Shown in pieces: positions 15,431 to 55,632 of a stretch of DNA of 64,000 nt; position 1 is the stretch's first letter; every line of letters begins with the position of its first letter. Where the stretch lies: contig WFMF01000314.1 of assembly GCA_011033025.1 (NCBI GenBank), forward strand, positions 145,644 to 209,643, given 5' to 3'. The DNA is from Beroe forskalii. Lineage: Eukaryota; Ctenophora; Nuda; Beroida; Beroidae. The notes under the pieces were generated by a model. It searched no databases. It had not been told where the DNA came from and saw nothing but the letters and a program-made list of their open reading frames with translations. Both the position numbers and the translations under genes were made by a program.

Positions 15431-15436
15431 TACTAT

Positions 15437-25800: not shown

Positions 25801-27705
25801 ACCATATGTCAATGTTTCTGACGGGAAACAACCGACAATAACCATGTATGTGTCACATTCTTGGCACAATGGTCCTGTAGCCGAGGATTCGTCATCAGTG
25901 AGAGAACTTGATTCATCTTTAACATCGGTTATGGAGGTTTCATCAGTGGATTCTTCGAGGTATTCGGACGAGGGTTGTTCGTTCTCCGCTGGGAAGAGGA
26001 ATCCGTCGCCTTCGAACACAAGAAAGAGAAAAACAAGAAGTAAAACTTTGAGCATGATAAACAGGCTAGACTGAATTGCTACTTTGGAATTATGACAGAG
26101 AAATGGGTAGCGGAGCACTGAAACTTGGCATTTTATAGTGACCCACCTACCTCACATGATGCTTTGAATTATTTCCTGTTTTCGAAGTATCGAAGTAAGG
26201 TCGAAATTTAATGAAAAAAAATAAAGCAGCAGTTTAAGGGTTCGGCGGCGGTGTTATCTTTCAAATCAAATTTTTTCTATGTGGATATTTTTGTTAATTT
26301 AATATCAGAAATTTACCCGAAATCATTTTTTCTCAACAGCACTTTCCCGTACCAACTGCCAATCGTCACGTTTCCTTTTTCAAGACGTCTCGAGGAACCC
26401 GGGATTGAAGTCTAAACTTTAAACGATATAACTGAAACGAGAGAGCTTTCGAAAATCTTGTGATTATCGTCGTCAACCTGGAACAGCTTATAAATGATTT
26501 GTGGGATTTATTAATCTCCTGAATCTTACAATATCATGAAATTTATGCAATCTCCGGAATTTCTTGTTGCCAAATCCACCAGAATTCTGGTTTCAATCGC
26601 TGGCTGTTCGAATGCTGGTTTCAACCTTGTCTGTATTTCAGGTACTATCAGACTGTATGCCACATGAATGACAAGTACTTGGAACTCAATGACGCCTGTT
26701 TTGGGTTCAAGGTGCCCTGCGGCGCGGACATTAAGCTTGGATCAGTGGATTTCTGCAGTTTGGATAGCCCCAAGAAACAGGAAATTCATCGAGAAAAGGT
26801 AGCGGTTGACTACATATGGATCATGATAAAAGCTTCACTCGAATTACAGACTGTTATACTGTTTTTCTCCAAAATTCTAATCATTTTATAAATTTGCAAT
26901 ACCTCAGAACCTCGGTATTCAACGGGCTCTTGGGTTCCGGTTTGTAGGAGCTAATGTTTACAGTCAACTGGACTCAAAGGTCCATTCGAAGGACAAGGTA
27001 AATCTTACGGTGGAAATTCAGTAAATCTCATTTGAGTGAGAAATATCGTTAGTTTAGTCTCTCATTTTAGTTAGAAGTTTAGTTAATTTCGTCTCATTTT
27101 CATTCTCCCATTTTTCGGAGGTCCTATTTTGCTACTTAATATTAAATAAAAAAAGTTGGTACCCATTTCATAGCTCTCCAAAAATAATTTTGATGAGGAA
27201 CATAAGTTTTGAAAATTCAGTGATTAAAACTTCCTCGATTTCAGAAATGGGGCCTAAGTTTCACAGTTCAAAACGCTGCGGTTAAAACTGAAGAGTACTT
27301 GAACAACGGTAGAGAAATCAGACGAGACGTATTGGCTCCCATAGTCAGGTAGTGTTTTGTTCGAGTGTTCGTGTTTGTTTCTTTTTCGTCTTTGCGTATT
27401 CTTTTTGCACAATCCACTCTACAGCACTACCTATTTGCTATTCAAAATAAGTGGTCTCTTACTGTGTGGAACCTCACCAGTCTGGTATTATTTCAGGTAT
27501 TTATCTAGTCTACTCGACTACCTGGTATTATTTCAGGTATCTATCTAGTCTACTCGACTACTACACTTCACAACGACTCTTCTGGTTGTGTCGCTGTTCT
27601 CTGTTAGTGGTTTACGATGGAGTAGCACACGGAAAAGCAACTGTGAAACTGATAGATTTTGCACATAACATTACACAGGTTGGACAAATGACACAACGAA
27701 CATAA
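22876..27705 (+). CDS. Inositol polyphosphate kinase family (IPMK/IP6K/IP3K type), partial
   Basis: Exons are 22,876-23,008, 26,642-26,798, 26,908-26,997, 27,245-27,348 and 27,537-27,705, all GT-AG with matching phases. These kinases phosphorylate inositol phosphates. Family landmarks in order: GKNGRLYKNI then RGEREEEFYKRVF (N-lobe start), FVPTYYQT at the first junction, the signature PCGADIKLGS (PxxxDxKxG, substrate and catalytic Lys), LGFRFVGANVY, SLLVVYDG, and LIDFAHN (the metal-binding DFAH). Family members normally continue about 35 residues past DFAH to a GYxxGLxxL segment. Here a stop follows after about 10 residues, and no later exon was found, so the C-terminus is missing or unrecognised. 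The 5' end is also open: the first exon begins in phase 1 behind an acceptor, and the earliest in-frame ATG is 22,882. Intron 1 is 3.6 kb and contains a nested minus-strand gene. The subfamily cannot be decided. Confidence 0.75.
23380..24310. repeat. Repeat-rich part of IPK intron 1
   Basis: A GGCGGTAACCCC cluster at 23,388-23,450 recurs at 25,690. Two degenerate direct copies of a GAGATGTCAAGAAC...CTTATAGGCTATA...TGACGTCATC block lie at about 23,510-23,645 and 23,885-24,020. No coding potential. Confidence 0.55.
24718..24859. repeat. 142-bp hairpin element in IPK intron 1
   Basis: Arms of about 57 bp, starting ACCACCAAAACCGTTGGACG and ending with its complement, pair almost perfectly around a loop of about 30 bp. 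The stem contains GGTCTAGTAACCCCC, related to the GGTAACCCCC cluster nearby. Likely a miniature foldback element. Confidence 0.8.
25126..25209. mobile_element. 84-bp miniature element with 8-bp target duplication
   Basis: TCTTCACT flanks both sides (25,118-25,125 and 25,210-25,217). The body has a CCGCTTCGCGG hairpin and the motifs GTCGTTGACAGACCCTC and GACAAG. A second copy with its own 9-bp flanks (CACTGCACT) surrounds the Ty3 element at 49,184-55,913. The duplication length suggests hAT- or Mutator-type mobilisation. Confidence 0.75.
25532..25578. repeat. Short hairpin
   Basis: TAGGTTCGGTGCAATTG and AATCGCACCGAACCTA form inverted arms around a GC-rich centre. It lies between the miniature element and the nested small gene. 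Role unknown. Confidence 0.5.
25774..26055 (-). CDS. Small secreted acidic protein, nested in IPK intron 1
   Basis: 93 codons on the minus strand, inside the first intron of the plus-strand kinase gene. The start ATG at 26,055 opens a classic signal peptide (MLKVLLLVFLFLVFEGDG). A region of about 40 residues follows that is rich in Ser, Thr, Glu and Asp, then a short cysteine motif (CQEC, then two single Cys) at the end. A TATAAAA box lies 76-82 bp upstream, which supports a real promoter. The last codons contain CAG|GTAAAC, an excellent splice donor, so the C-terminus may be completed by a further exon and the stop at 25,774 may only be read if the intron is kept. Codons upstream of the ATG stay open but have no ATG. 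Family unknown; it could be a secreted peptide precursor. Confidence 0.6.
   Translation of the reverse strand: MLKVLLLVFLFLVFEGDGFLFPAENEQPSSEYLEESTDETSITDVKDESSSLTDDESSATGPLCQECDTYMVIVGCFPSETLTYGTCSGKPEL
26131..26137 (-). promoter_or_regulatory. TATA box of the nested secreted-protein gene
   Basis: TATAAAA on the minus strand, 76 bp upstream of the ATG at 26,055. Transcription would be expected to start near 26,105. A TATA box at this distance, with no other gene nearby on this strand, supports the small ORF. Confidence 0.5.
27484..27563. repeat. 40-bp direct duplication across a splice acceptor of the IPK gene
   Basis: Two tandem 40-bp units, each containing TATTATTTCAG|GTATxTATCTAGTC, give acceptors at 27,496 and 27,536. 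Only the second keeps the kinase frame (PIVR|YLSSLLDYY leading to DFAH). Use of the first adds 40 nt and hits a stop after about 17 codons. Confidence 0.9.
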
Positions 27706-28763
27706 CATAAAATATTGATAATGATATATAGGAATTTTTAGAATATGACTTATTATCTTGCTGATATCCTTCACGCACGCCCGCCCATTAAAATCTTAAT
27801 AATGGGTCTGACAACATCTGGCAAAACTGGACAGGAACTTCAGCTTTCTCTACAATATGTTTAAACAATAAACCATGTTTGTCTGTCCGAAGGGGGCCAG
27901 GCAGCGTCTGGCCATGTTTTCTTCCCTAAAACTGAAAAAATAGACATCATGTTTAACAGCACGTCACTCTGAATTCCTCAGGAAAATCATTTGTCAATTT
28001 ACTTCTTTACTGATGGACTGAGCCTCTGTTTCTTTAAATATTGTTAATTTTTCTGCCCTAAAAACAAGAAAAAAGTCGTCACGATGGCGAAATTATCACC
28101 TTTTAATTTAAGTTTTACCAGTGACGTCAAATTTCCCAGGAAAATCCGGCTGATGACACGCATGTGGACGCAGGGCTGAGGAATCTCCTCCACATCTTCT
28201 CCTTCATCCAGAACGATCAGACTAGTTCTTGGGTTCACGAGATGGCAAACGATTAAAATCAGCAGGGATGATTTATAGCTGGTAGTGATTATAGAATCTG
28301 CAGGATGACACGAACTGCAGATTAAATTCAAATTACAACGATTAAAATCTGCAAGAATGATTTATAACTGCAGTAAGCGATTAAAGTCTGCAGGTTAAAT
28401 TTAAACGATTGAAGATAAAATCAGAAATCTGCAGACAGCAGGAGTGATATACAAATGGTATGACGTCATTAATTATCATAGATCAAAGCAAAAGTGGATT
28501 TTTTGAGGAGACTTAACGAAGCACGTGCATGAAATATAAGCATGAATGATAATAATGAAATACTGCGTGGTGTGAATGTGATGTCATTGTCAAAATTGCC
28601 CATTTCGAACATCCATCGGTGTTAAGATGAATTATTGATGACTGCAGTACAGTACTGTTTTGAATTTTATTCTTTTTAGTGTTTAGTGTTTTTAAATGGT
28701 TTTAAAATTATGGCAATCAGATCAACTTTATATATAGGGACGTCGTGTTCGTTATTACTATTA
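27706..28763. other. Downstream of the IPK exons: non-coding with short repeats
   Basis: Contains several copies of a GATTAAAATCTGCAGGAATGATTTA motif (about 28,250-28,430). I looked for the missing C-terminal kinase exon (a GYxxGLxxL segment) and did not find it. Confidence 0.45.
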
Positions 28764-29406
28764 CTAGAGTAGCAGACCAAAGTTGAGCATGCATTTCGGT
28801 GTCCAGAGTTTTTGAGAGTTGGGGGTGGTACTTGGGGTGTTTCTGCACCAAGATCACCTTGGTACACAATATGTATCCGTACCCGGTGTTCAGGAGGGCC
28901 ACGCCCATTTCCGCCCCCAGGCGCAAAGTCGGATTTTACGTAACTTGGCCCAGGAAGGTCGAAGAGACTTCGTTTTGGGCTCAAAAGAATCGCAATGACC
29001 ATGTTTATATACAACTTTCAACAAACATATGCTCTAAAATGCCCACAAACCAAGTCATCGGCGAAAAACTGTTTTTTTTTTAACTTACGCAAGAGTTGAA
29101 ATAAGTCCTTTCTTTTTAGATTTGCTCTTGAAGGCTCTGCAGAATTTGTTCAAGTCCCATTAGAGTTGCAAAAATGCCCCTATGCCAATCGAATAGACAC
29201 ATACCTCAAAGACAGAGCATTGGCTTCAGGCCCGTAGCCAGGGGGAAGAGCCTTGGCTATTGGCCTGATTGTGTTATGAACAAAATTGCATGACACACAC
29301 TATAAGGATCTGAAAATAGGGTAGTATAGGCCTTGTTTTTTTTGTTTTTTGTTCTTCGTTTTTTCCACACCTTTTCATGTAAGTTCCTTAAAATTTTATG
29401 ATAATT

Positions 29407-30304
29407 ACTAGCAGGCCCGTTGAGCCTGCAAATACACAGCTCACTCGGCGCTGCTACGCAGCACCTCGTTCGCAAGTTTCAAATCAACTAAATACTTTTT
29501 ACCGCATCAAAAAATTCCAATCCGTTCAAAAGTTACGCGAAGCAACGTATTCAAAACATCATTAAACAGAAATGAACGCGCGCGCAATATGTAACCATAG
29601 CAACGCGCGCTTCTACACCAAAACTGCACGCGCGCGCCCTAAAATGTGTCCACAAAAAGGACTAAAAACGTGACAGTCCACAAAAGGACGAAAAACAAAT
29701 TTACAGAGGTTGCGAAATTATATAAGAGACTAGCAGGCCCGTTGGGCCTGCAAATACACAGCTCACTCGGCGCTGCTACGCAGCACTTCGTTCGCAAATT
29801 TCAAATCAACTTAATACTTTTTACCGCATCAAAAAATTCCAATCAGATCAAAAGTTACGAAGCTCCGAAATTGAAACACCATTAAACAGAAATGAACGTG
29901 CGCGCATTAATCTGCACGTGCGATTTCCCCCATTGCGCGCGCGTTGCCATGGGGCGTGACGTACAAAGAACATACAGAAAGCGCGAAATTATAAGTAAGA
30001 CTAGCAGGCCCGTAGGGCCTGCAAATACACAGCTCACCCAGAGCTCGCAAATTTCAACCAATGCGATTCAAATCAACTAAGAAAATTTTTACCGCATCAA
30101 AAAACTCCGATCCGTTCAAAAGTTATATTAGAGATCGCGCAACGTAATCAAAACACCGTTAACAGAAATGAGCGCGCGCGCAATTCTCCGTGCACGTGTG
30201 ATCACCATGGTAACCCGCACAAATCGTAATGCGCGCGCGTTCCGAAGATGTTTCCGCCGTTACGACAAACAAAAAACAGAGGTTGCGAAATTATATAAGA
30301 GATT
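29407..30304. repeat. Three tandem copies of a ~270-320-bp repeat
   Basis: Units start at 29,407, 29,729 and 30,000 with ACTAGCAGGCCCGT, then GGGCCTGCAAATACACAGCTCAC, followed by a TTTTTACCGCATCAAAAAA motif and CG-rich GCGCGCGCAAT stretches. The unit ends with GAGGTTGCGAAATTATATAAGA. The middle motif is shared with the foldback element in gene B. Confidence 0.85.
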
Positions 30305-30479
30305 ATAATTTTCTAGGCTAAATCTTATTTATAAGCACTACCTACACAGTCTCTGATCACTGGCATCAGGACCAGTGCAAGGCGCAAGCGGTTACATACT
30401 ACATAGCTGCCACCAGCCAAATTTTCAAAAATCGTGGGAGGGCAAGATATTTGGCAGAAAGAAAGGCAATAAAGCAATA

Positions 30480-31090
30480 AGTACCTTTGCAAAGCGAGAT
30501 TGGCTGTTGTAGCAGCCATTTCAACCCATCCCATTTGCACTATGGGTACCTTGCTGAACCATCACTTCAAATTTCAACCCATCCCACTTTAATCATAGTC
30601 ACCACTTCTACCCAATCCGATATATGTGTGTATGTTATACATACCAACATTTCTAAACCACCACTGCAACCCATCCTACTATTAGTACCTTTCTGAACCA
30701 CAGCTTCAACCCATCTCAATACTTCAATATAGGTACCTGCTACATTTCTAAACCACCACTGACAAAGGCAACCCATCCCACTATTGGTACCTTTCTGAAC
30801 CACCAGGCACCACTTCTTCACATCCCACTATGGGTATTAAGTACCTTCCTGAACCACCTATTCTACCCATCCCAATATTGGTACCTTTCTGAAACACTAC
30901 TTTCAGCCTTCCTTATAGATACTTTTCTGAACCAATACTTCAATACATCCTAATTCTATATGTACCTCTCTGAACCACCAGTCACCACTTCTGCCCATCA
31001 TACTATATGTACAATTTTGAACCAATACTTCAACTCTTCAGCCCATCCCACAAGTTTCTCAGTATACGCCCCTTTCTGTACCAACACTTC
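30480..31090. repeat. Degenerate minisatellite, unit about 38-45 bp
   Basis: Repeats of a GGTACCTTTCTGAACCACCA and CTTCAACCCATCCCACTAT consensus, about 13 variable units. It lies inside the 3.8-kb inverted-repeat element. Non-coding. Confidence 0.8.
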
Positions 31091-31942
31091 TAAATCCAAA
31101 AGCGTGATTGAAAAGTTACAAAGTTACAATTGATAGTCATACTCACATCCATGCCATAACGATGGAAATTCAAGTCGTATTTGGGTTGGTTCTGGCTTAA
31201 GAAGATGGTGGACAAATTTAATCCCCCATACACTCATAAACCTGTCAATTATAGAATTATGAACTCATGAAATACATGAAATACATGATTAACATACAGT
31301 AATGCTGAAATATAAACATTGAAAAGTTTTCCAGATCAATTAACATTTAAAGTGTTCAATCCAAATCTTCGGGCAAAATCTTTGGATATACTTGATGAAG
31401 GAAGATAGCTTATATATCAATAGGTTCTATACTGTAATGCTCAAAATGCCATTCAAGCCAAATGACTTTTGAGAATTTCTAATCATGAAATACCTCATTG
31501 GTTTAAAACAAGTTCATTTCAAGCCAGAAATCATTGGAAACTGTCCAAAAAACATAGCCCAAGAATCGAAAAATTAGGGTAGGGCTTGAGTTTTTGGCCT
31601 TTGGGTCACAAACCCCCTACATTCAAGCACATTCATTAATTACTGTATCTACACAGATTCTGTTAGCCTGGTGCTTCTGAATATGATTTCTCTCTTCGCG
31701 CTTGTAGGGTAACATCTCAGTCAACTATGAGTAGATCGGAGAAAGGACTACTAATTTAAGTTCTTGCATAAGCTCAAAAATTAGTTTCTGGGCATTTTAG
31801 AGCATAAAAATGTAGGCAAGTCGTTTATAATATGAAAGTATAAACATGGCCTTTGCGATTAGTTTTCGAGCCAAAAAATCTCTGCGACCCTCCTGGTCCA
31901 AGTTGGAATAAATTTATCATTCTCTCATTGATGGCTTGCAAG

Positions 31943-32122
31943 CAGGGGCATAGCCAGAGAGAAGGCAACACAGGCAGCTGCCTCCCTCTTTTCAGACAGG
32001 AAATGTAAAAACATTGTTAGTTTCTTCATAATGAGAGCTTTAAGCCAAGAAAATTTAACATTCAATAGGTTTTGAATTTACCTGATCGCCGCCTCCTTTT
32101 CAAAAATCTGGCTATGCCCCTG
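31943..32122. mobile_element. 180-bp hAT-like miniature element
   Basis: Inverted termini CAGGGGCATAGCCAG and CTGGCTATGCCCCTG resemble the CAGGGG-type ends of hAT elements. Flanks CTTGCAAG and CTTGCTGG match at 6 of 8 positions, consistent with an aged 8-bp target duplication. It is nested in the 3.8-kb element. A partial related terminus (GTAGCCAGGGGG) lies at about 29,235. Confidence 0.7.
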
Positions 32123-32609
32123 CTTGCTGGTGATTGAAAATTCAGTTTTTCGCCAATGACTCGGTTTGTGGGCATTTTAGAGCATATGTTTGTTGAAATT
32201 TGTATATAAACATGGTCATTGCGATTCTTTTGAGCACAAAACGACCTTCCTGGGCCAAGATATAAACATTTTCTCATGATGGCTCGCGAGTGACCGAAAA
32301 ATCCGTTTTGGCCTATAACTTGGTTTGTGAGTATTTTAGGTCATATGTTTGTTAACAGGTCTTATATAAACATGGTCATTGCGATTCTTTTAAGCCCAAA
32401 ACGAAGTCTCTACGACCTTCCTGCATTAGGTTAGTTACGTAAATCCGACTTTGCGCCTGGGGCGGAAATGGGCGTGGCCTCCTGAACACCGGGCGGATAC
32501 ATATTAGTACCAAAGGTGATCTTGGTGCAGAAAAACCCCAAGTACCACCCCCAACTCTCAAAAACTCTGGACACCGAAATGCATGCTCAACTTTGGTCTG
32601 CTACTAGAG

Positions 32610-34879
32610 TATATTAGGCTGAATGGTATTAATTAGAATAAGTATGATTTCGTGATTCTTTTACTCTTCAGGCTCTGTTATGCTAGTAGTAGTAGAGACA
32701 GTAACATTTATGCTTGAAAAGAGTTAATTATAACTATATTAACTCTATGAGACAAATTAACCTTATGAGACAAATTATGTAAATTCTAAAAGTTGAATTT
32801 GTTAAACATTGAAATCCTCTATAAATATATTTTTCATATCAACATGATAAACATCAAAATAATTAGTGCTGTGATAGAACGAATAATGATATTTGATTTT
32901 CTAAGCTTATGAGTCATTTTCTGATTAACAGTGGTCCGCGCAAATTTTGACCCATTTATTATTTTTACGCCCTTTGTGAATGTCCATTGATGCAAAATTT
33001 GCAGGGGAATAGAGCAACTCATGACATAAGACAGCCTCTGTGAAGAAAAATTTATTTTCATTGTAAAAATGACGAAGATATTGCAAAATGAAGTCGTTTC
33101 GAACCGAAACTGGCGGTTCTGGTCCGAAACCCCCGACTAAATTTTGCTACATCTGCGTAATTTTGCATTATCTGCGTCTATTATCAGACGCTTTGGATTA
33201 TGCCAATATGCCATAAACTGTATCCGCTGCAAATTTTGGTATCGTTTGGACATTCTAAATGTTTTTCTTTAATGAAATGCACAGAATTAGTGCATGCTTT
33301 TTTCCCAGTCCGAAACTGATTCATTTTGAAAACAGTAAAAATTTTAATTTTTTTTAACGGGCGTACATTTTTAATTAAATCTGTTTTTAATGATTATCGA
33401 TAAAATAACCTTAATTAAGTCTTTTAAATTTTTCTTATAAAAACTTTTTCCTTTTAATTTTTTAAATTTAAAATGCAAATATATAAAAATTTTTGATAAC
33501 AATTTTATTGTTGTTGTTTTTATAATGAAAACCATTGATTTGCAGTGTTTCCCGATTAATCGATTAAAATTTAGTGATATGTTTGCATTATGACATACTC
33601 CCCAGTTAAAAAAACAGTTTAAGTTCAAATTATAGTTATAATTTTTGAATTTTGGGGGTTTTAATTATAGTTATAAGTTTGAACTTCATCCTTAGCTTGT
33701 CAGGTCCACTTAAACTATTTAAACTTGTATCATGATCATTCCCGGCTACCCCATCCCAAAATTCCTTATTGACAAATTTGTAAACTTGACACGTTGTCTA
33801 GTTTGCTTTGTCCCGTCTGACCCCTTCCCTTCGGCGGGCGATGACAAAAAACATAATTTGATATATTCATTAATCATTTGTAATATTGAGCCGCGCACCA
33901 CAAGAAACGTCGGATACGCAGCGTTTTTGTGCGGTGTACGGCTCAAGTTTGCGCGGCGGCGAAACAACTCTCAAAGACGCGCGCCGCAATCAGTTGCAGT
34001 GCGTTTGAGAAAGCATTAAATTTAACTCCAGTTCAAAATTTTAGAAAATTACGATTGCCTGCACATATCACACATAAGGAGTCAATGTGGGTATCATTTT
34101 GCACAGTAGTTCATTTTATTTCGGCAAATTTAAGAATACAAAGAAAACAATATTTTGATTTTTTATAAATTACTGTAAGCAAAGACAATCAATATCACAC
34201 TCGTAGCAAATTCATTTGAAAGTCAGCAATGAAAAATGCATATAAAACCTATCAAATAATAACCCATGAGGAAATATTAACCTGGGTGAAATGTGTCGAT
34301 ATAATAATCAGAATTTAAAACAAATATGCAAAAATATGGTTTCAACTTTCAGTAACACAACTTATAGTGAATATTTAGTAGTTACATCTGGAAGGCAATA
34401 TTTAAATGTTCATTTATCATGAAATTGGTTGAATATACTGATTTCACAGATAAGGTTGTTGAATTAGAGTTGCATAATTACAATTAATGAGTTATTGTTA
34501 TCTAAGCTGATGGTGATAGCATGCTATGTGTTACCCTGTAGACTATATTTTCAATGATGACAGTTGATCGAATATAATGTTAATTCTGAGTACCATGTCA
34601 AGTACATAATCGGCAGTCCAGCATGTTCTTCTTGTCGACCACCTGGGTCCGCGCACTACGCACCTACCGGCAAGGGACATGTTTTAGATCTCATTAAAGG
34701 GTTCAAAGTTCCGCGAAAGGCGAGGCAGGACCCAAGAACGAGTTATAAACTTTAAATATGACACCTCATCTTGTAATATTTCAACTACAAGCAAAGATTG
34801 GGGCCTGATCTGATTTAGGCTTAAAGTTAAGGAGATGACGTGTCGTGAGATGAAATGTTGTGAGATAAGATAAGATGAA
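32610..34879. other. Intergenic, AT-rich, no gene supported
   Basis: Contains an inverted AATTATAGTTATAA pair near 33,630-33,680 and a short CG-rich block at 33,890-34,015. I searched the minus strand for TM6-TM7 of the GPCR that lies upstream on that strand and found none. Confidence 0.4.
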
Positions 34880-34899
34880 ATGTAGAAATGTCGTACCAC

Positions 34900-35060
34900 T
34901 CACCTGCTTCTTCACTTCCACGAAAATGATAGTATAAGGGAGAAGACGATGATGAGAGGGTGATCTGGCTTAGGCTTAGAGTTATTAAGATGATGTCCTC
35001 ACCTGTTTCTTGACTTCCGTGAAAATGAGGGAGTGGAGGGTGATGATAAGGTGATCTGGT
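34900..35060 (-). repeat. Two decayed copies of GPCR exon 3 end plus donor, within the next intron
   Basis: The segment coding EVKKQ with its donor (plus strand CTCACCTGCTTCTTTACTTCC at 35,175-35,195) recurs at 34,901-34,930 and 34,998-35,030 with neighbouring exon sequence. All three copies keep a GT donor. Confidence 0.75.
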
Positions 35061-35179
35061 TTAAGCTTAGAGTTAAGGTTAGGGTCAAGACAGCTGGAGA
35101 TGAGGTGTCGTGAGATAAAGTGTCGTGAGATCTCACGACACTTAATGAAGATGAATTCTAGTACTCCTCAAGTCCTCAC

Positions 35180-36692
35180 CTGCTTCTTTACTTCCATGAA
35201 AATTAGGGAATAGAGGGTGATGATAGCCAGGAGAGGTATGACTTGGAGGGCTGTGAAGATCCCGTACAACACGTAGCAGAGCGGACACTCTGTGGAGGTG
35301 AACTGCAGGGCACAGGTACCGTAGGGGAGGGTGAACTCGGAGTAGGCCTGTCCTGTCCGGATCAGGGTCTTCTCAACGGGAACTAAACTCAGGATCGGGA
35401 TCTGAGGGAGAGGACATCATAGGGATTAATGTGCTTTAAGGGATTATTAAGGGTCTTGAAATCTGCTTGCTATCATTGTTCTTGAGGTATAATACAATGG
35501 ATCATAGTGATTAACTTTTAGATAGTTTACTAACCAGTTGAGTGCTTCTAAGCTGCGGTTGGAAGCACTCAATACTCAACGCAATATTAAATCAAGGGGA
35601 ATATGCATCGCAACATTTTTTTTATAGAAGGTACAGACTACAGACCGAACCATTTCATTCTCCTTCCCGAGTCTCCAAGTAGAAGATTACGCAGGCTAGG
35701 ATCAAATGATAGATTAACTGATACTCACCATAACGCGAGCTAGAATCAAGTATTCGATGAATTGGTAACTCACCATTACGCAAGCTAGGATCATTACGCA
35801 CACAGTCCTCTTGTCAAACTGATACTCACCATTACGCAAGCTAGGATCATGACACACACAGTCCTCTTTGTGACCCTCCTGTTGTACTGCAGAGGGTACT
35901 TCACTGCAATGAACTTGTCAATGCTAATCACCACCAGTAAGTTGAAAGGAATGGCAGTGAGGAGGACCACTGTGATGCTGAACATGTCACAGAAGTAGGT
36001 GTCGTCATCTGAGGAGATTAGGTTAGGAGAAAACAGAATAAGGGAGAGATGAGATATGAGATGTGTACAGAATAAGAGTGTAGATTGTAAAGTGTAGATA
36101 TGATGTGTACAGAATAAGGGTGGTTTGAGATGACGTGAGGTGAATGCTAATAAGGTTGTATAGACTGTATATTCTTAGATCGTTAAGGTTTGAACGTTTG
36201 TATGGCACTTTTGTTACATCAGAGCCATATTTAGCCTGATTCTTGAAGCGATGTGCACTTTGGCGGCTGGCTTTTATCAGACACCATATTCTCAGATAGT
36301 GTGCCATCTGTTTTACTAATTAAGTGATAGCAAGATGAATGCCCATATCACACTAACTCCTTCCTCAATAACCGCAACTGGCCTGATTACACTCGAATCC
36401 TTCGATCCCTGTCATTGGCTGTTCAGCTGTTGGAATGGAAGTAAAACATCTACAATAAACACTAACACTAACCTCCTGCTATCCAATGCCCAGTAAGGCA
36501 GCTGACCCCAATGGGGACCATGCTGAGTCCGGCACTGAGGAGATGGAAGAAGCAGAGGACAGCCACCAGAACATGGGAAGGAGAGTGGAGGAAGGAGGAG
36601 GAGAGGGTGGCAGCTATCACACTCACATTACCCACCAGGGATAGAGTGGCCATCACCATCATGGTGATACCTCGAGCAAGGAGCATCGTCAT
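35180..36692 (-). CDS. Rhodopsin-class (family A) GPCR, partial: TM1-TM5
   Basis: Exons on the minus strand are 36,473-36,692, 35,830-36,008 and 35,180-35,401, joined in frame with GT-AG introns (phases 1 and 0). Exon 1 has TM1 with the LVGN motif and TM2. Exon 2 starts DDDTYFC with the conserved TM3 cysteine, has VISIDKFIAVKYPLQY at the cytosolic end of TM3 (a DRY-type site read as DKF), and begins TM4. Exon 3 completes TM4, the second extracellular loop (with its cysteines) and TM5 (VIPLLAIITLYSLIF), ending EVKKQ at the start of loop 3. No TM6-TM7 exon (WxP, NPxxY) was found downstream before 32,600. The gene is therefore truncated, or its last exon is unrecognised. The ATG at 36,692 leaves only about 10 residues before TM1, so an upstream exon is possible. 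Ligand unknown. Confidence 0.75.
35728..35829 (-). repeat. Two further copies of GPCR exon 2 end plus donor
   Basis: The exon end coding ILACVM followed by GTGAGT is repeated in the intron with donors at about 35,774 and 35,731. The copies carry substitutions but keep ATG|GTGAGT. Confidence 0.8.
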
Positions 36693-36889
36693 CTTCTATT
36701 GGGGGTTAGAGAGGCGTTAGAATGAAGCAAAAAATTAGAGCTGAATGTTCAATTGGCGCTCTGGCGACCGCCAACCCATGTCTGGCGGCAATAATGCTCA
36801 TTTTCAGGAGCGCATGTGAAAAATGCTCATTTTCAGGAGGGTTGCCCTAGGAAGTAACTTTGAGCAGTCACGGACAAAATCCTGAAAAC

Positions 36890-37500
36890 GAAGAGGGTTA
36901 GAGTGGCGACATCACCATCATTGTGATGGCCCGAGCAAGGAGCATCGTCATCTTATGTTATCAGCTGTACACGAGAAAGAGGGGGGGGGGGTTTAAAATG
37001 TAAGAAGCATCGTCATAGTCTATTGGGGGCTGAAGCTCTTCCATGAACGGTTTTTCGTATTCGTAAGTGTACAGTCACGTGACAACTATACATTCCCTTT
37101 TCTTTCTTTTAAAAGTCACGAATAAGCTCATGAGTTACGATATATCATATAACTCTACGATCACTATGAAGTGGTCTTACGAATACTCTTGGAAAATTTC
37201 CACCAATGAGAAGGCGCGATTTTTGACTGAATGACTTACGAGTATTCGTAAGACCACTCCATAGTGGTCGTAGAGTTCCTTCGTAACTCTGGAGTTATTC
37301 GTGACGTAAAAAGTGAAATGTATAGTTGTCACGTGACTGCACGCTTACGAATACGAAAAACCGTTCATGGAAGAGCTCCAGGGGGTTAGAATGTTAGAAG
37401 AGGGATAGGGTGGCCATCACCATCATGGTGATACCTCGAGCTAGGAGCATAGTCATCTTATGTTATCTGTACATGGGGGAAGAGGGAGAAGGGTTAGAAT
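36890..37500 (-). repeat. Decayed copies of GPCR exon 1 start, in upstream sequence
   Basis: The exon 1 start region (plus strand CATCACCATCATGGTGAT, then GAGCATCGTCATCTT) recurs at about 36,905-36,955 and 37,410-37,460, with an extra partial piece at 37,005-37,030. A foldback element (37,034-37,377) lies between copies. Confidence 0.75.
37034..37377. repeat. 344-bp foldback element
   Basis: Arms start AGCTCTTCCATGAACGG and pair along most of their length around a centre near 37,200. Arms include ATACGAAAAACCGTTCATGG and GTCACGTGAC. No coding capacity. Target duplication unclear. Confidence 0.8.
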
Positions 37501-39702: not shown

Positions 39703-39875
39703 TACATAGACACGGTGCGCGAAGGGATCTATTTCAGATAGAACCCGCGTAGCGGGTTCTATCTGATAGAATGATACGAGTGCGCGCAGCGCACGAGTTT
39801 TCATTCTTTGTGTAATCCCGAGACGAAGTCGAGGGGTTACACTTAAATAGACTCTGAGAGCACCGTGTCTATGTA
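39703..39875. mobile_element. 173-bp miniature element, 16-bp perfect inverted termini
   Basis: Termini are TACATAGACACGGTGC and its exact complement. Inside is a perfect CAGATAGAACCCGC hairpin. A relative with the same TACATAGACAC ends lies in the sulfotransferase intron (62,086-62,221), so this is a family. Confidence 0.75.
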
Positions 39876-42800
39876 TTATAGATGAGTCCGGGTTATTGCA
39901 TGAGAGTCTAAAAACACAACTAATGGAAATAACTGGTAACACAATTGGCAGAACAAGCATTTCAGCTTTTCAAGAGATCCAGTGCTTTGATTGGTTGATT
40001 TGAAACTTTGCAGAATTGACTTGAGGATGGCAGGAGAAGGATGGTTCATGAACAGAAATAATTCTATGAATTAAACAAGAGTATGTTTCAAAGAGGACTA
40101 TTGTACGATAACAAATGCAACAACAAAAACAATATCAATCAAAGAATCAAAACAACAAACACAATATGAATATCGACGAATATTAGGGCATTACGATAAT
40201 CTGCAGGAGCATGCAAAAGAGGTAAATTGACCTCTTCTCGCCGTGTTAACAAGTAGAGCAGAGCCAGAACGGCGAAACGAAACAGAAATTAAGTGCAAAA
40301 ACTGTGTATGAGAGAATGAGAAACCGTTTGCTCCGAAACCAGTGGCACGTGCGCGCGCGCAACACGTGACCTTGATTTGGTACAGTAACAGTGGCACGTG
40401 TGCGAGTCACGTGGGACGGTAATTACATGTTTAGAGAGATTCTCGTGGGAACGAAACATTTGGTATACATGTTGTGAGTAAGAGTGCGTGTTGTTTGAAA
40501 GGAGTACAATACACTGAAACTATGTGATAGAGACAGTGAATGTATTTGATAGAGGGATTATGCCAGCGTGTCTATCGCTCTATTTTTTATCCCCTCCCGC
40601 TGGCTAAATCCTCACGCAATAACCCGGACGAATCTATAATACCTTGCATCTCTGACCAAGAATGCTTTTGTGCTGTGCTAGGTGAATCTGAGTGCTATGG
40701 ATCTCATTCGTAGGATGTTGTGCTATGTGTGCAATCATTCTTTAGAAGAGCTGTTAATTGCTAGCATTAGCTGTTTCTCTGTTAGTGCTAAGTGTTTTAA
40801 AAAAGAAATCATACTAATCTCATCAAATCATCAAGGAAATAGCAGAGTTTTTAGCAAACAAGGAAATTTGGAATGGCCAACAAACATTTCCAATGTTCGG
40901 TCAGTTATGCATGGCAACAGACCCTAATAAATAAATCGAGTTGACTTGAAATTTTGTATCATTTCAAAAGATGCACGTCCTTCTGATCATAGTAATTTCT
41001 GTCAAACATTCCATAATATCAGCTGTTTATAACATCTTGGCAACATACTCCTTTTTTTGAGGAGCATACATACTCCCTTCTATGCTCCAGGCTCCTACCA
41101 ATTCAAATTTCATGGAATGTTTCCCATCATCAGTACTTAGTCTGGTACAGTAGGTAGGTGCGGCTAATGTTTTTTGTCTTTAAATATCAACACACAAGTC
41201 TATTCATGGCTCATACTCCTATCAACGTAGGATGATAATTGTCATAGATTTTGATGATTTTCAGAGGACAGACAATGATAATCTTCCTACAATGGTAGTT
41301 TTCTGCCCTGATGAATTGTGATGATGTTAAATTTGTCGAGTTATGTCAAATAAAACTCCTGTCGTCTTCCTTAATTGCCCATTGTTTCTCCAAAGTCTAA
41401 GATTTTTCAGTGCTGTAAAAATGGGTTTCACACAAAATCCTTTGGGCATTGCAGAACTTTTTATACTCTGCAAAGTCAAATAAGATTAGGAACAAAATAA
41501 GTCGCCGACTGATTGTATCATTTCTAAAATGAAGTGGTTGTCAATGAAAAGGGCGGGACTGAAAAACAATGTGTTTTGTTTTTGTATAATGAATTGGGGC
41601 GTTTTTCAAACAGAACAATAAAACAGGGCTTATTTTGGTGTTTGTCTGAAACTGGTTAATTCTAATGGGACTAATTTGGACTAATCGAGGAATCAGTTTA
41701 TTAATGGATTAAAATTTAAAGACGTATTTGAGATTTAATAAGGAAGTGTTGAATGGCGTGGTTGATATTATGGAATTATGCGTGGTTATGATGAATTGAG
41801 ATCTGAAAACCACAAGTTAAGAAACGAATAGTATTGTGTTGAGGTGTTGTAATGATTTGCACTTCACCAACATTTACTACACAAAATAACGCACAACCTT
41901 CCCTTCGTCACGCACAACAAAGCATGACGTATTTTACCACCATAATAACCCGAGATAGGTACAATTCATTGCATACTATTTATTATAAATAATAATATGA
42001 TAATAATAGAGTTAAGGTGGGGAGTGATGAGCATGTGTTGACAGTTGAGGCTGCCCTTCACTCCAATTGGTTGACGAAATAGTGACGTCATTATCATGGC
42101 TAATCAACCACCCCCATGTTTGCCATGTTTGCCATGTGTCTGTACATAAAGTGCCCTGTAGTAGCACCAGTATTGCAGATGGTGCATTAAGCAGGGCAAT
42201 TATCCGATTATAGGTTTAATACACGCTGATAAGTGCTGTTATCAGCAACATACGCTACGTAGTGCTCTAACACCTGGAGTACTGATTAGGTACTTGGTAG
42301 GCCCAATCCAAAGGATAAGATAGGGCACAAAAGCAAATTGTAGATGGATTATTGCTGTAATGCTGTGAATTAGGTTGAGGATAATAATTACTTGATAATG
42401 GCAATTGTGTTGATGAAATTGTAATCTTCTCACTTCTGGTGTCTTCTAAAAATCACGCACTTTACTCCAAGGGCGGGAATGGTGTGATTTATAGCGCTGA
42501 ACCGTCTTTTACTCGAGTACACAAAATCTCTAGTCATATATTTTCATTTTTAAACATAAAGCAAACGAAGTGTTGCAAAGTAAACGAGACAAGGACCGCA
42601 TTAGCCGAGACACCCTCTCAAAATCGGGTCGTAGCAGTGAAAATGGAAAGCGCGTACTAAATTCCTTCGACAGGAATGTTCCAAGTCCAACAAATGTTCA
42701 AACAGCGCTCTACCTACCTTTCCACGCACGGATCGCATCGCTTTACACCACTGATGTTTTCTAAGGTTATGCTAAAAGCTTAAAGTACTATGTCCTAAGT

Positions 42801-45522
42801 TTGTGTAGCCGTTGTTGCCAGTTGCTACCTAGGTGGCTATCCGTTCGGGCTTGATTGCAGCGTGCGCAGTGTGATAACGTCGCAAACTAATTGTTTAATA
42901 TATCAGATAGCGACACCAAACTCAAACAAGCTGAATATGGTACTTGAATTATGGATATCGCTTAGCGCTATGAAACACGTGAGTTTATCGAAGTTATAGC
43001 ATATAGCTGGTTATAAACATATTCAATTCTCCGAATTCTATCCCTGTTAAAGTTTTAAGTTGCAGCAATTTTCCTGGTTGAAATTTCGGCACAAATATAG
43101 AAATATATGCATATTTCTATTTTCAATAAAAGCAAAATTTACACTTTATGCCTTTAAATTTTACAAATTAGTTTGCACCGTGAGCGTACAAAATATGAGA
43201 ATATAGGGTTGATGAAATAATAAACTGTTTGTCCAAACATAATTTCGCTTTCATTTGCATACCTTCACGAATATGATATTTGAATTAGGATATACCTCTA
43301 TAAGATTATTCTAATTGGGCGTTCTAGCTGTGAACTTGTGAGTCGTGTTGGCATGGTCTGTCCTTGATAAAACCTTGGTAAGGTACAATAGACTTGAATA
43401 GGGCGGATCAGTTTCCATATTGAGACGGTTCAAACCGATTCTCCCAGCACGAACAGGACAATGGAGGAAGGGACAAAGGTTTTTTTTTAACAAATTAACA
43501 ATCATAACGAGGCTGTTACTGACTGCTACTGATTCTAACTAAGAAATAGACGCTAGATTTTAAAACATGATTTGATAATTTACGGCTGCAAATTATGGAA
43601 AATAAATTGTGAAACTTCGCACTCTAGCAGTTTTATCTGCGTCTCGGATAAAAATCATTCTCAAAATTCCATTCTTTAACGCTCATCAAGGATCAAGAAA
43701 GGGAAAGTCGGGTCAAATTCTGAAATTTGGATAAATATAAGAAAAGTTACTAAAGCATCACTCACTAGTGTCCAGTGTCCACTATTGATATGGTCGGTAC
43801 CGATTGTTACAGAGCATATTTTGGTGCCATAAATAGAACCGATGCCATGGCTCAAATTATTTGCTGCGCGATCTTTCATTAGAGTCACCCAAAACAACCT
43901 TACTTACTGTGATCAAATTTTGGCATTAATTCAATGATTAAATTATTGTCTGCTAGAAGAATGATTTCAGCTTCATTCTGGGCCCTGGGGGATACAATAT
44001 AGCGAATATTTGAGGTATGGTCGAGCTATTTTACGCATTATTGTAAAGCATTTTTTTGATATTTATATACCTAAATGGAAAGGCTGAAAACGTTTTATTC
44101 CACAAAATTGTTAATGGTAGCCTAAAACTTGCTATGCGGTGTGAAGTACTCTTTCTGTTGAAACCTTTGTCGTTAAGGCCTTTCCCTAACTCCCATTCCA
44201 CCAGACTTCACCCCTACTTGATTATCCAATAATTAACTTTCCTGCCGCCAACATGCTGCAATGTGTTATGTGGTCCTAATATAATAACTAGCTTTAGCGG
44301 TGCTCTGAACCATTAGCATATTATCACTTGCCCAACCCATCTCCTATTCTCCTTACCCACCCATCATTGTGTTTCAGAGTGACACTCTGGCAGTGTCAAA
44401 CGGGTAAGTGTGGTATTTGAGTGTTTGAGTGTGACACGGGTAAGTGTTTGATGGAGCGTGTGTGACTTAAGACACTGTGGGTTGTGGAGTGATTATCGAG
44501 CACCTTACAGCACTTGATTTAGCATAACTTTGGTCTCGTGTAACCACGAGGTTAACTAATTAACTGCCAGGAACTCACCGTGACTTATCATGCCCATGAT
44601 GGGGATCGCTGTGCCTAACCTAAATGCCAGTCGATAGTCTGGAGTTTAATATCCTTCTGACTCAGAACTGAGCCGTCCATTGCTCAACCCTGCCTCAACT
44701 TGCATATTCCGCCCTATCCGAACATTTTCACTGTCAAATTAGTCCCCATTTATTTTCACATTTTCATTTATGTTCCATTTCGTTTCCCCCAGTAAAACAG
44801 TTTCACGCCCTAAATCATTGAACCAATGTTGACAATTGAGACTTTTGTCTGAACCCCTCTACTACTGATCCATCTAGGTAGGAGAATTAAATATTTATAA
44901 TTCATTTTTCCTTTCATTCGCCCTTTATTGAAAACAAGAAAGGGTGCATATACGTGCGTAACTAGTTAATGATATGAATTAACGTATTTGAATTTACTTA
45001 TTAACGACGTAGAATATTATTTTTCATATGTTCAAATAAATTTAGTGACAAATCCGAACCATGCTGCATAACCGCTCAAGTTATAAACATCGAACTTCAG
45101 AGTTCCGTGGTCGAAATCAAATTAAAGAATTAAGAGATGCTGACCAAGTGACAAATTTCTTGAAAAAGTTGATTATGCAAATCTGCTCACTTCTATGATT
45201 TAATTTTAATTAGCTTTTCAAATTCTTCTCTTTTCTGTGTTTCATCTTACCTTTTGGATTGTTTCTGCACTTTTACACCCCACCTTTTTGGAAATATTCC
45301 ACATTTCTGTGTCAATTGGCAATGTAATAATTAAAAAGGATTAGAAAGCTCAATTTAGTGATCGTAGGTTTTCCGCACATCACTGATTATTTTCTCTCCA
45401 AGCGTAATACTTATTTCATGATACCTCGGAACCCTCAACCAAATTTCTCGATTCCTATGGTTCGAGCTGTGCAACCGCCTCGACTTTGTCTCTGCAGTAT
45501 CTGCACAGCTCTCAAAGTGGGA
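39876..45522. other. Long non-coding stretch
   Basis: No gene is supported on either strand; the open frames are short and lack family features. CG-rich palindromic bits such as CACGTGCGCGCGCGCAACACGTG occur near 40,345. Missing 5' exons of the RNF4-like gene could lie towards the right-hand side but were not recognised. Confidence 0.35.
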
Positions 45523-45917
45523 GGGGGCCATCCATAAACTTAAAGGACGTCCGTAAAGAGGGGGGAGGGGAAGTCTGGCCAAGGCGGACAATTGCGGACG
45601 TTGGGGGAAGGGGGTTGTTTGGCCAAATGCGGACGTCCGCAATTTTTGAAAATTTTGGTCGATTCGACTGTTTTTTCACTAGAAAATAGTTTATTTTTTA
45701 GAATTTCGACGAAGATTTTCGACATTGAGTCAAATAATAAAGTTTTTTTGTCACCAAATTTGAGAAAACTGTCATGAAAATGATGACACAAAAGATTTTG
45801 AATGAAAATGCGGACGTCCGGAGGGGGGTATTTCAGGTTGCGGACGTTTGCGGACAAGGGGGGAGGAAGGGGTCTAAAATAGCTGAAATTTTGCGGACGT
45901 CCTTTATGGATGGCCCC
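45523..45917. mobile_element. 395-bp non-autonomous element with GGGGGCCATCCATAAA ends
   Basis: Left end GGGGGCCATCCATAAA...GGACGTCCG and right end CGGACGTCCTTTATGGATGGCCCC are inverted. Extra GCGGACGT motifs lie subterminally on both sides. No transposase. Target duplication not clear. Confidence 0.8.
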
Positions 45918-47968
45918 GAAGGTATTGATTTATTCGGCATTCGGCAATGTGGTCTTATTCAGTCTGAAATCGGAGTTTGAGTAACTGGGAGTCACTCTTC
46001 TTGTAAAGTTGTATGATGTGAACGTCCTCCCTTGTCAACTGTGATGTGGTGCATCAGGAGGTGATAAGATAAAATGAGGGTTTTTGCCGATCAGATCCCT
46101 CACCGCTTACACCTTAAAACTGGTACATCCAGATGTTATAGTAGTACAGTTTCAACTTTTAACAAAATCATTCCGGCAAAATCTTACCTTAACAAGAATT
46201 CGAAGGGCAACAGAACGGTTAAACAAGTTAAAATAAGTTAAATATCAAGCGGTATTAACCTAAATCGTTTGCAAATGCTGTCAAAGAAAATAAACTCAGA
46301 AGACGGCCACAGAAATATTTATCTAAAATTAATTTGAGTAATTATGTCGATTGTTAAAAATCCAGCGAATTGTCATAAAATTCAATTGCGTTGAATTTAT
46401 TCACCAAATAACCAATACCCCCTCTAATATAATATCCTCGGAGATATATTTCGCGAACCATAATCATCATCCCCGTCTTCACCAACGCCGAATTATTCAC
46501 AAGTCGGGTGGATATATGTTGACTCTATATTCACATAAGTGAGTTAGGAGAAAATGACTCCAATAATTGACATGTAATTGTGATACCACTGTTTAGAGAG
46601 TATGAACTGATGAGTGCTGGCCCCATGAAGTCGCCTGATTGACCGCACGCCGCGACACAAGAGTGAAACATGTGTCACCATGGTAACACACGGGTGAAAC
46701 ATGTGTCACCATGGTATTACACAAGAGTGAAACATGTATCACCATGGTAACACACGGGTGAAACTTGTGTCACCATGGTAACACACGGGTGAAACATGTG
46801 TCACCATGGTAACACACGGGTGAAACATGTGTCACCATGGTAACATATGGGTTAAACATGTGTCACCATGGTAACACAGTGGTGAAACATGTGTCACCAT
46901 GGTAACACACGGGTGAAACATGTGTCACCATGGTAACATATGGGTTAAACATATGTCACCGTGGTAACAATAGTGTGAACATGTGTCACCATGGCAACAC
47001 GTCTGCCATCATAGCAACAAATGTTTTATCATAGCAGCACAAGCACACCCGCACACCTTCCAGATCAACCATCCATGCTCTAGATCGCTCCACTGCTTCT
47101 CTTGATCTCTTTGCCAAGTTCCCGACCTTCTAATCCTTCCTCTCTCTTCTATCCCTTCTCTCATCCCATGACCCATCCCTGATCCCTCCTCCCATTAGCT
47201 CTCCCGTCCCTTCTCTCATCCTTTCTCTCATTATAATCTGATTTCTACTCTCTAAATATGGTTGCACCCAAATTGTGTGAGGGGAAGGGTTAAAGGGAAA
47301 TGGTGGCTTAAAAGTGTTCAAGGGTGGCTTATTTAGATCAACAATTCAATGAATGGCTGATCTTAAGATGGTTTGAATCACATAATTTGTGCTATTTTTC
47401 AATTCACACGGTATCAAGGTGTGGTATTTTCTTCTCACGCTTCTTTTTGTGAAGGGCGTACATACAGGGAACTACCGCCATTCACCACGTTTTATCTACG
47501 AATGATTTCCTAAATAATTTCCTACTTGTGGTGTTTAAAAAACAGTTCCTTATCTACCTACATTTAAAAAGTCTTCGAAACATCTTTTAAACACTCTGTG
47601 AATTCTATATGACAGTGGTACAATGTTCAAGATGAAATAGGGATCATGTAATTTGCTATTTAATGCCATTATTAATGATGATGTTAATGTGGCGAGAGGA
47701 GGGTATTTCCTTAACCTCATGACATGTCGCCATAAATAGCACTGAGATCACCATTCGTATCTGTAGAGGAACAGACCTGCATTACAGATAATATCCACAA
47801 TGTTCAAAATGTGGACAAAATTTCAAAATCAGGAAGTGTAGATTTGGAAAGAGGGAAGGTGTCCTTTGAAAACCCATAAGTCTATTGCTCCATATTACAC
47901 CCATGTACCTGCATGGGCATATGCCGCTTCACTTCACCCCAGTGCTTTTAACCTGCTTTTATTTTCAG
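45918..47968. other. Non-coding, with minisatellite and polypyrimidine tract
   Basis: Apart from the minisatellite, a CT-rich tract runs at about 47,090-47,240. No exon recognised; if the RNF4-like gene starts here, its first exons are too short or diverged to call. Confidence 0.4.
46650..46990. repeat. Minisatellite, 31-bp unit, about 11 copies
   Basis: Unit consensus is two consecutive parts, GGGTGAAACATGTGTCACCA and TGGTAACACAC, with variants. Each unit contains the palindromes CCATGG and ACATGT. It lies about 1 kb upstream of the first recognised RNF4-like exon. Confidence 0.9.
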
Positions 47969-48810
47969 GATAGGACAGCGTGCCCTTGCCGCTGGAGGCA
48001 GACCCCACACTGCAAACCCACCCCAGCCCCCCAGCAGACCTCAGCAAGGGGTGCAGCCCCCACCCCCTCCTCCCTCTACCCATCTACCTGGAACATGGCA
48101 GCAACCTGCAGTCGTTGATGAGCGGTGAGAAATCTTAGTGTACGAGCCTGGAACATGCTGTGTTTTGTAATCTCATATGTTTTGTCCCGGGGTTAATATA
48201 AAATATTTATCTTCTGTAATTATTGATGATCGGATACAGTGTTCCAACTTTCCCTCTCAAAGTGCGTGTCTGACATTTCCTGATACCGCTATTTAATATC
48301 CGCAGCCCTGTCAGACCTGGAGGTCCTTCTCTAGACGAGCTCCCTGCTGCTCCCCCTGATGCTACAGACTCAGACTCCTCCTCCCTGTCCTGCCCTATCT
48401 GTCTGGACAGCAAGAGACAGGTCTGTGTGCTGTGAGTTGTCTGTTTGGACAGAAAGAGTAAGGCTTGTTTGCTGTTTACTGTACAGCAAGATTCAGGTCT
48501 ATTTGCTCTTCGATTTTGGCTCAGTAGTTTCATTGTATTTGCTGCGATCTGTATTTTGAAAATTTGAAATGAACCCCCCACAATCCAATTTACAGTTCTT
48601 ACTTCATGATATCTCCAATCATAGTAACCACACCCTCCTTCACACCTTTAATCTCAGATACAAGCCTCCGGTCGGAACCTGGTGGTTACCATTTGCGGGC
48701 ATGTGTTCTGCAGCTACTGTATCCTGCAGATCGTAAAGTCATCCAAGCAGTGTCCCGTGTGCAGGAAGAAACTTACAGCCCGGAACGGATGGCACCCCCT
48801 CTACGTTTGA
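47969..48810 (+). CDS. RNF4: RNF4-like RING-type SUMO-targeted ubiquitin ligase, C-terminal exons
   Basis: Exons are 47,969-48,124, 48,306-48,420 and 48,658-48,810, in one continuous frame (phases 2 and 0). The first is proline- and glutamine-rich; the second adds an acidic Ser-rich stretch ending SCPICLDS, the first RING cysteine pair. The third gives CGHVFCSYC and CPVCRKKL, completing a C3HC4 RING, and ends GWHPLYV, closely matching the YHPIYI terminus that RNF4 needs for RING dimerisation and activity. RNF4 ubiquitinates poly-SUMOylated proteins in the nucleus. Its N-terminal SUMO-interaction motifs are not seen here, and the first exon begins in phase with a missing upstream exon. The donor of the second exon (GTCTGT) is weak and lies in a three-fold tandem duplication. 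Confidence 0.8.
48395..48510. repeat. Three decayed tandem copies of an RNF4-like exon end and donor
   Basis: GTCTGGACAGCAAGAGACAG|GTCTGTGTGCTG is followed by GTTTGGACAGAAAGAGTAAG|GCTTGTTTGCTG and CTGTACAGCAAGATTCAG|GTCTATTTGCTC. Only the first and third keep a GT donor. Confidence 0.7.
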
Positions 48811-55630: not shown

Positions 55631-55632
55631 TT

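Follow-up and report, generated by a model that had tools for sequence, protein, structure and literature searches.

Tandem repeats at exon-intron borders of the ctenophore Beroe forskalii are likely mirages of splice-blind local duplication

Why should the edge of an exon be repeated inside the neighboring intron? The question is raised by a 64,000-nucleotide stretch of the Beroe forskalii genome (here called the window, at its full length), in which segments covering splice borders occur in tandem in an IPK gene, a GPCR gene, and an RNF4-like gene. We consider it likely that these repeats are mirages, generated by local tandem duplication that is blind to splicing, tolerated at intron edges, and able to lengthen introns.

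Repeated borders in three genes of the window

A sequence-only reading had listed tandem copies of splice-border segments in all three genes, and TRF and self-comparison recovered them at or very near the places given. The spliced IPK domain matches Pfam PF03770 (1.6e-25). On the + strand, the end of IPK intron 3 and the start of exon D, which begins at 27537 according to the frame of the spliced domain, make up the real unit (27522 to 27561). Directly upstream lies a decoy unit of the exon D acceptor (27482 to 27521, +), composed of 15 nt of intron end, ...TATTATTTCAG, and 25 nt of exon start; TRF and self-comparison define it, and it is identical to the real unit at 39 of 40 positions. The duplicated 40-bp acceptor unit is therefore present as two units, placed at 27482 to 27561 instead of 27,484 to 27,563.

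The GPCR gene, whose product matches 7tm_1 (Pfam), is encoded on the - strand and carries repeats at three exons. The real end of exon 3 with its donor CAG|GTGAGG (35172 to 35225; the exon ends at 35180 by the 7tm_1 match and spliced frame) is accompanied by a copy with the same donor (34995 to 35048, 89% identical by self-comparison) and a far copy with CAG|GTGAGT (34897 to 34955, 75% identical by sequence comparison), so that the segment occurs three times, as had been proposed. The end of exon 2 had also been counted three times. It is indeed repeated, but as a real copy with donor ATG|GTGAGT (35824 to 35868, exon end at 35830, by sequence comparison) plus, within 35680 to 35812, one good copy with ATG|GTGAGT (35768 to 35812, 96% identical by self-comparison) and two partial ones (35680 to 35754, by sequence comparison), one keeping ATG|GTGAGT and the other having lost the donor. 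Sequence comparison likewise bears out the copying of the exon 1 start, real at 36636 to 36700 (ATG at 36692), with copies at 36888 to 36962 (85% identical) and 37397 to 37467 (91% identical). Between these exon 1 copies lies a hairpin MITE-like element (37030 to 37381, no strand assigned), detected as a self-inverted match, with dozens of genome matches among 40 of 690 candidates scored, the full matches mostly at up to 95%.

In the RNF4-like gene, whose product has a RING match (Pfam), the RING and the spliced frame place the real exon end at 48420, with donor CAG|GTCTGT (unit at 48395 to 48433, +). It is followed, in agreement with the earlier claim, by two copies reaching 48512 (48437 to 48512, +; 77 and 78% identical by sequence comparison). 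In the first, GT is missing from the homologous position, with a donor-like AGA|GTAAGG beside it; the second keeps CAG|GTCTAT. A putative upstream RNF4 exon of 26 nt (44378 to 44403), with donor CGG|GTAAGT and a donor copy ending at 44439 (feature 44378 to 44440, +), was absent from the earlier list; its junction score of 17 was reached by 0 of 400 shuffles.

Two generalizations about these units hold in part. The unit straddles the exon-intron border in IPK, at GPCR exons 2 and 3, and in the RNF4-like gene, but the start of GPCR exon 1 may be either a splice site or the point where translation begins. Decay away from the exon, proposed for every case, is seen at GPCR exon 3 (89, 75%) and exon 2 (96, 78, 74%) but not at exon 1 (85 then 91%) or in RNF4 (77, 78%).

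The repeats themselves are real. Four annotated junctions (the IPK acceptor, the GPCR exon 2 and exon 3 donors, and the RNF4-like donor) lie inside local direct repeats, and for each the observed repeat score was reached by 0 of 400 local shuffles. The real window holds 409 repeat pairs with a score of at least 16, compared to 2 to 5 in four whole-window shuffles. Many of the 409 belong to one satellite. Offsets between border repeats range from 28 to 244 bp, and border copies differ from the real unit by 3 to 26%.

Recurrence outside the window and change in copy number

Border repeats were also found at a PIK3R4 exon 7 acceptor (score 69.5) and a PIK3R4 donor (26), at a CCT donor (62), and at kinesin donors (50 and 38.5), and they recur on five contigs (C375, C296, C558, C212, and C928). 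Tandem units spanning an exon-intron border are thus present in the GPCR, RNF4-like, IPK, PIK3R4, CCT, and kinesin genes, acceptors being affected in IPK and PIK3R4 exon 7 and donors in GPCR, RNF4-like, CCT, and kinesin. Many copies keep the AG or GT splice signal, including those of the IPK array on C296. At PIK3R4 exon 4, an upstream copy of the exon start was seen by eye; this junction was scored as a miss, its intron side being too short for the scoring rule.

The number of border units is unstable between gene copies. The homologous IPK border on C296 has five units compared to two in the window copy, with the exons of the two genes 96 to 98% identical; in that one array, units 1 to 3 share AGTCTGC and the real unit has AGTCTAC, a difference that may bear on the homogenization of a cluster apart from its border unit. 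Two CCT gene copies carry one and three units at the same border, next to a 233-bp match of 97.9% identity. The kinesin intron on C212, 311 nt long, consists mostly of copies of its own exon's last 23 nt plus GTTTA. Together, the unit-number differences of IPK and CCT and the kinesin intron support the suggestion that a local mutational process lengthens introns from exon edges.

Splice borders compared to the background

Across four gene sets, 11 of 114 junctions were high scoring and 10.7 were expected from background, a count in which some automatically placed borders are doubtful and not all junctions are independent, since 3 of the 31 window junctions come from a segmental duplicate and the CCT pair is paralogous. 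The 95% confidence interval (4.9 to 16.6%, compared to 9.4% expected) still allows an excess of up to ~1.8-fold. The sampled genes do not support a preference for borders, a claim that was to fall if repeats proved no commoner there than inside introns; the statement that the cases exceed chance expectation stands for the repeats, by the shuffles, and not for their position. Because borders are affected no more than nearby DNA in these genes, the repeats look like ordinary local duplication tolerated by introns.

At a score of at least 20, 4 of 31 window junctions were high, compared to 7.1% of array-free non-coding positions (P=0.17); array-free intron positions reached 11.6%. Exon interiors were repeat-poor, with 1.8% of window positions at this score compared to the 7.1% of non-coding positions. 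The donor of the window sulfotransferase had a junction score of 0. This sulfotransferase is only 30% identical to a Branchiostoma protein; on this low identity and the ctenophore-like spliced leader, an origin of the window from a lancelet was rejected.

Backgrounds were defined for each set: non-coding DNA without arrays and mobile elements for the window; all positions, exons included, in the nearest 16 kb for PIK3R4 (6.1%, with 13.9% for the whole 80-kb flank); and non-coding DNA including arrays for chaperonins and kinesins. The chaperonin sample used 37 of 45 matches (seven genes, 30 neighboring exon pairs, 17 resolved), and the kinesin sample used 32 of 120 (seven compact genes, 25 pairs, 18 resolved), with C212:75325 and C671:28466 set aside as wide matches with internal stops. 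Tandem arrays with a period of at least 10 cover 9.0% of 254 kb; 50 kb of C469 served for repeat coverage and the spliced leader only. Codon usage gave too weak a signal (0.05 per codon) for exons to be found de novo.

Between the halves of the segmental duplication in the window (7.1 kb of alignment columns in five blocks, 83 to 95% identity), the 12 indels of at least 6 bp included no clear tandem duplication. This comparison, which covered the blocks themselves and had only 3 indels of at least 12 bp, thus gave no sign of duplication.

Competing explanations and known systems

Exon-intron borders could instead be the preferred targets of a duplication mechanism linked to splicing or transcription. 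The kinesin array on C212 is located exactly at the donor, and 4 of 10 genic repeat events in the window span a junction, compared to 1.3 to 2.7 in four placement simulations (P 0.03 to 0.24, depending on the null). However, more genes show no excess: of 83 junctions outside the window, 7 were high when 8.5 were expected, and we regard such targeting as improbable. It seems about equally improbable that the copies serve a function in splicing, as alternative or decoy sites, for example in unproductive splicing that tunes expression. Many decoys do have good splice signals (ATG|GTGAGT twice, CAG|GTGAGG, and CAG|GTGAGT), which strict neutrality does not require and which counts against the mirage explanation. 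Nevertheless, all five decoy routes read, past four real donors and from the IPK decoy acceptor, meet a stop within 3 to 51 nt, so that protein variants are unlikely and the proposal of useful alternative splicing loses its support; unit number differs between gene copies, and the first RNF4 copy lacks its GT.

A further possibility is that introns were gained recently, either through duplication of exon sequence containing AGGT or through introner-like elements. In its favor, mirages have been proposed to provide material for new introns (PMC3087553), and a recent potato case is known in which a duplication crosses an intron-exon border (PMC4974935). Here such gain is very unlikely and the earlier suggestion of it unsupported, because donor and acceptor flanks were unlike in all 12 introns tested (lowest p 0.07) and the copies are confined to one end of a pre-existing intron. 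Nor was dispersed similar intron sequence, as expected of introners, found for the RNF4 region, which matches itself alone (1 of 1 candidate), or for the GPCR region, where the scoring of 40 of 690 candidates gave the region itself, MITE copies, and one stretch of 48 bp on C469. Misassembly commonly arises at repeats, but the divergence of the copies and the recurrence of like repeats on five contigs make an assembly artifact scarcely credible.

Under the mirage explanation, the border repeats would be tandem duplications of a minisatellite-like kind, in which the unit lies across an exon-intron border by chance. Short stretches of non-coding DNA in B. forskalii would be copied by a local process blind to splicing, first perhaps by break repair, with slippage or unequal exchange altering them later. 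Where a unit lies over a border, the exon-adjacent copy would preserve both the frame and the real splice site, and the remaining copies would become intron. Selection would maintain the real copy, leaving the presumably near-neutral extras, as decoys ignored by the spliceosome, to decay, expand, or disappear; introns would therefore lengthen from the exon edge. More tentatively, ctenophore exon edges may be a standing source of intron sequence: units would duplicate, grow to up to nine additional copies, and occupy introns entirely, as in the kinesin on C212. A notable share of intron length would then originate in exon ends, and splicing would have to find the single frame-keeping site among near-identical neighbors by position or branch-point context, not by the site itself.

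The occurrence of such repeats in a comb jelly, set against a measured background, suggests that no special mechanism is necessary for mirages and that they could arise wherever local duplication is frequent in a genome. They offer a concrete route of intron lengthening from exon edges and ready-made natural constructs for testing how one of several near-identical sites is chosen in splicing.

A ctenophore trait described in PMC8527503 is a spliced leader present in many copies, which ends in AATTTGAG and has a GT donor after it. When at most 2 mismatches are allowed, this end plus GT has 989 matches in the genome and the reversed control has 0; one copy matches the Hormiphora leader at 35 of 45 columns.

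Mirages are known as tandem duplications of exon-intron borders in Branchiostoma, in Adh3, TnC, the globins Gb6 and Gb9, and PGBD5 (PMC3087553, PMC3902484), with splicing apparently undisturbed by RT-PCR (PMC3087553). The repeats of B. forskalii resemble them in that the unit straddles the real border, donors and acceptors are both affected, units are short (10 to 160 bp in Branchiostoma; offsets of 28 to 244 bp here), AG or GT is kept in many but not all copies, and copy number varies. They differ in that the host is a ctenophore, variation is between gene copies and not haplotypes, normal splicing is presumed, and the positional null was examined and not rejected. The model of Rogers, as named in PMC3087553, likewise involves a short segment, with a splice border or AGGT in it, that is duplicated in tandem, but in B. 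forskalii no new intron was seen and the copies extend existing introns from one end. Introners (PMC9860276) are also repeated DNA bearing splice sites; their copies are inserted genome-wide, whereas the border copies here are local. With descriptions of mirages in these accounts coming from lancelets, the comb jelly appears to be a new taxon for a known phenomenon.

Gene models and repeats at splice borders

Spliced translations, with exon borders set by open frames and GT/AG, yielded an inositol polyphosphate kinase (IPK; PF03770, 1.6e-25), a minus-strand rhodopsin-type GPCR (PF00001, 2.3e-17), and a RING protein resembling RNF4; the names RNF4, CGRRF1, and CCT3 are presumed. The exon borders of the sequence-only reading were correct, with one exception: the start of GPCR exon 1 could be either an acceptor or a translation start. 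Protein searches found no close named relative of the sulfotransferase and CGRRF1-like proteins. Positions 1-10414 and 10582-21549 form a segmental duplication with main blocks 91 to 95% identical, containing a multiexon gene (6576-9674) and its copy; a Pfam scan of three large exon frames of this gene gave no significant matches. Open frames like small secreted proteins occur at 25774-26151 and in another stretch, L008 (~1668 and ~3237); one carries an acidic repeated stretch, STLEVKDESSSL, which is absent or shorter in the others.

Tandem duplications over splice borders are present in the three genes as that reading described. The 40-bp unit at the IPK acceptor occurs twice (39/40 identical), the GPCR exon 2 end has three copies (96, 78, and 74% identity), and two copies each were found for the GPCR exon 3 end (89 and 75%), the GPCR exon 1 start (85 and 91%), and the RNF4-like exon end (77 and 78%). 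Given the last two pairs, the proposed decay of copies with distance from the exon is not general. We scored each junction by the best local repeat crossing it, within ~600 bp and with a minimum of 5 points on either side. Four junctions scored 38, 41.5, 42, and 22. Two were weaker: the donor of a putative RNF4 exon at 44403, with a score of 17, and the GPCR acceptor at 36008, with 16. At each of these six junctions the observed score exceeded those of all 400 local shuffles. Elsewhere, the acceptor-like TTCTGATTTCAGGGT occurs three times within an intron (948-1080), adjoining no known exon, and 37030-37381 is a MITE-like hairpin element with dozens of genome copies, the best full ones ~95% identical.

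Position of repeats relative to splice borders

Scores of at least 20 were reached at 4/31 window junctions. Among background positions the proportion is 7.1% in noncoding DNA free of arrays and mobile elements (P = 0.17), 11.6% in array-free intron sequence, and 1.8% within exons. Removing border clusters lowered the background to 5.4% (P = 0.083), with P values of 0.03 to 0.05 at two other thresholds. Among ten genic repeat events, 4 span a junction versus 1.3 to 2.7 by random placement (P = 0.03 to 0.24, depending on the null). Border preference could not be decided from the window alone.

The test was extended to PIK3R4, chaperonin, and kinesin genes in the 216-Mb assembly (1134 contigs). 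PIK3R4 lies on the same contig as the window, its exon order backed by alignment to PDB PIK3R4 (E 7.2e-58). Strong repeats cover 2/13 junctions in PIK3R4 (background 6.1%, nearest 16 kb), 2/34 in chaperonin genes (9.9%), and 3/36 in kinesins (12.0%), or 7/83 outside the window versus 8.5 expected. The four sets pooled give 11/114 (9.6%, CI 4.9 to 16.6%) versus 10.7 expected (P = 0.50), and the counts are 15 versus 14.3 at scores of at least 16 and 7 versus 7.5 at scores of at least 30. Strong local repeats thus span roughly a tenth of junctions, compared to 6 to 12% of background positions. The idea that splice borders are hit beyond chance therefore fails at this sample size, by the outcome that the sequence-only reading had itself named as refuting. 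Its argument that chance would not produce five cases in 21 kb holds for the repeats themselves, given the shuffles, but is not supported for their position at borders. Borders of the 114 junctions are partly automatic, the backgrounds are unlike in makeup, and some paralogues are nonindependent; a border excess below ~1.8-fold remains compatible with them.

Origin of the repeats and consequences for splicing

Similar arrays occur elsewhere in the genome, where tandem arrays with a period of at least 10 occupy 9.0% of 254 kb sampled. Contig C296 bears an IPK copy with exons 96 to 98% identical, within a block homologous, in pieces, to window positions 22125-34197; the same acceptor has five 40- to 44-bp units there versus two in the window. 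For this copy, paralogy is more likely than allelism, since no second copy was found of the RNF4 region in a genome search or of the GPCR among 40 scored of 690 genome candidates. A chaperonin (CCT) gene has two inverted paralogues, one with a single donor and the other with three 37-bp units. By eye, the PIK3R4 exon 7 acceptor shows five units of roughly 40 to 50 bp; the exon 7 donor is present twice, 50 bp apart. A 311-nt kinesin intron on contig C212 is largely made up of one repeated unit, the last 23 nt of the exon plus GTTTA, with nine further copies by eye, one of them partial. On contig C291, tandem kinesin exon matches at G000:C291:171201-174881 (profile 221-264 three times, ~266-300 four times) are possibly an exon duplication array.

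Most likely, the border repeats are the product of local duplication blind to splicing. Such a process would copy short stretches, and where a unit lies over a border, the exon-adjoining copy would retain the frame and splice site while the remaining copies would turn into intron. Two other roles had been suggested. As useful alternative splice sites, the copies fare poorly: on all five routes read, four continuing beyond a real donor (GPCR exon 2, GPCR exon 3, and the two of RNF4) and one starting at the decoy acceptor of IPK, a stop follows within 3 to 51 nt, and read-through in the C212 array gives GTT TAG immediately, so decoy use would not yield normal protein. For intron gain by duplication of AGGT-containing segments, no similarity between donor and acceptor flanks was found in 12 introns compared, and thus there is no sign that duplications created these introns. 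As to how splice-blind duplication might proceed, the two breakpoints of the window's IPK unit have 0 bases in common, which hints at break repair rather than slippage. The hint is weak: it comes from one case, and, given the five units on C296, the array in the window may have contracted. At ~173135 on C296, a branch-point-like CTAAC is found a short way upstream of the real IPK acceptor, and CTAAC also precedes unit 1, the one farthest upstream, but units 2 to 4 are preceded by CTACC instead; CTAAC is perhaps a cue for splice-site choice.

Mobile elements, spliced leaders, and known border repeats

An LTR retrotransposon (49203-55835) has identical 203-bp LTRs (49203-49405 and 55633-55835), so its insertion is probably recent. 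Among the best 120 of 2643 matches to a piece of it, the highest-identity named relatives are from Mnemiopsis and Bolinopsis (54 to 59%), and pseudoscorpion records (36 to 46% identity) rank high by E-value. Similarity to the Hormiphora spliced leader was seen in two stretches: one matches at 35/45 columns (score 23, with 2000 shuffles reaching at most 14.5), and the other scores 12.5, equal to its shuffle maximum. The 22-base leader end plus a GT donor has 989 genome matches with at most 2 mismatches, and the reversed pattern has 0. According to an excerpt of PMC8527503, Hormiphora has 718 leaders and Mnemiopsis 491. In the stretches L035 (~2518) and L044 (~1964), leader-like sequence is followed by GC or GA, not GT.

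Tandem border repeats of this type were named mirages in amphioxus (excerpts of PMC3087553 and PMC3902484). Searches of mostly open-access literature, judged by titles and abstract openings, showed none described for ctenophores. The border repeats of B. forskalii are thus of a known kind, that of the amphioxus mirages; what is new here is the taxon, a ctenophore, and the null test of position.
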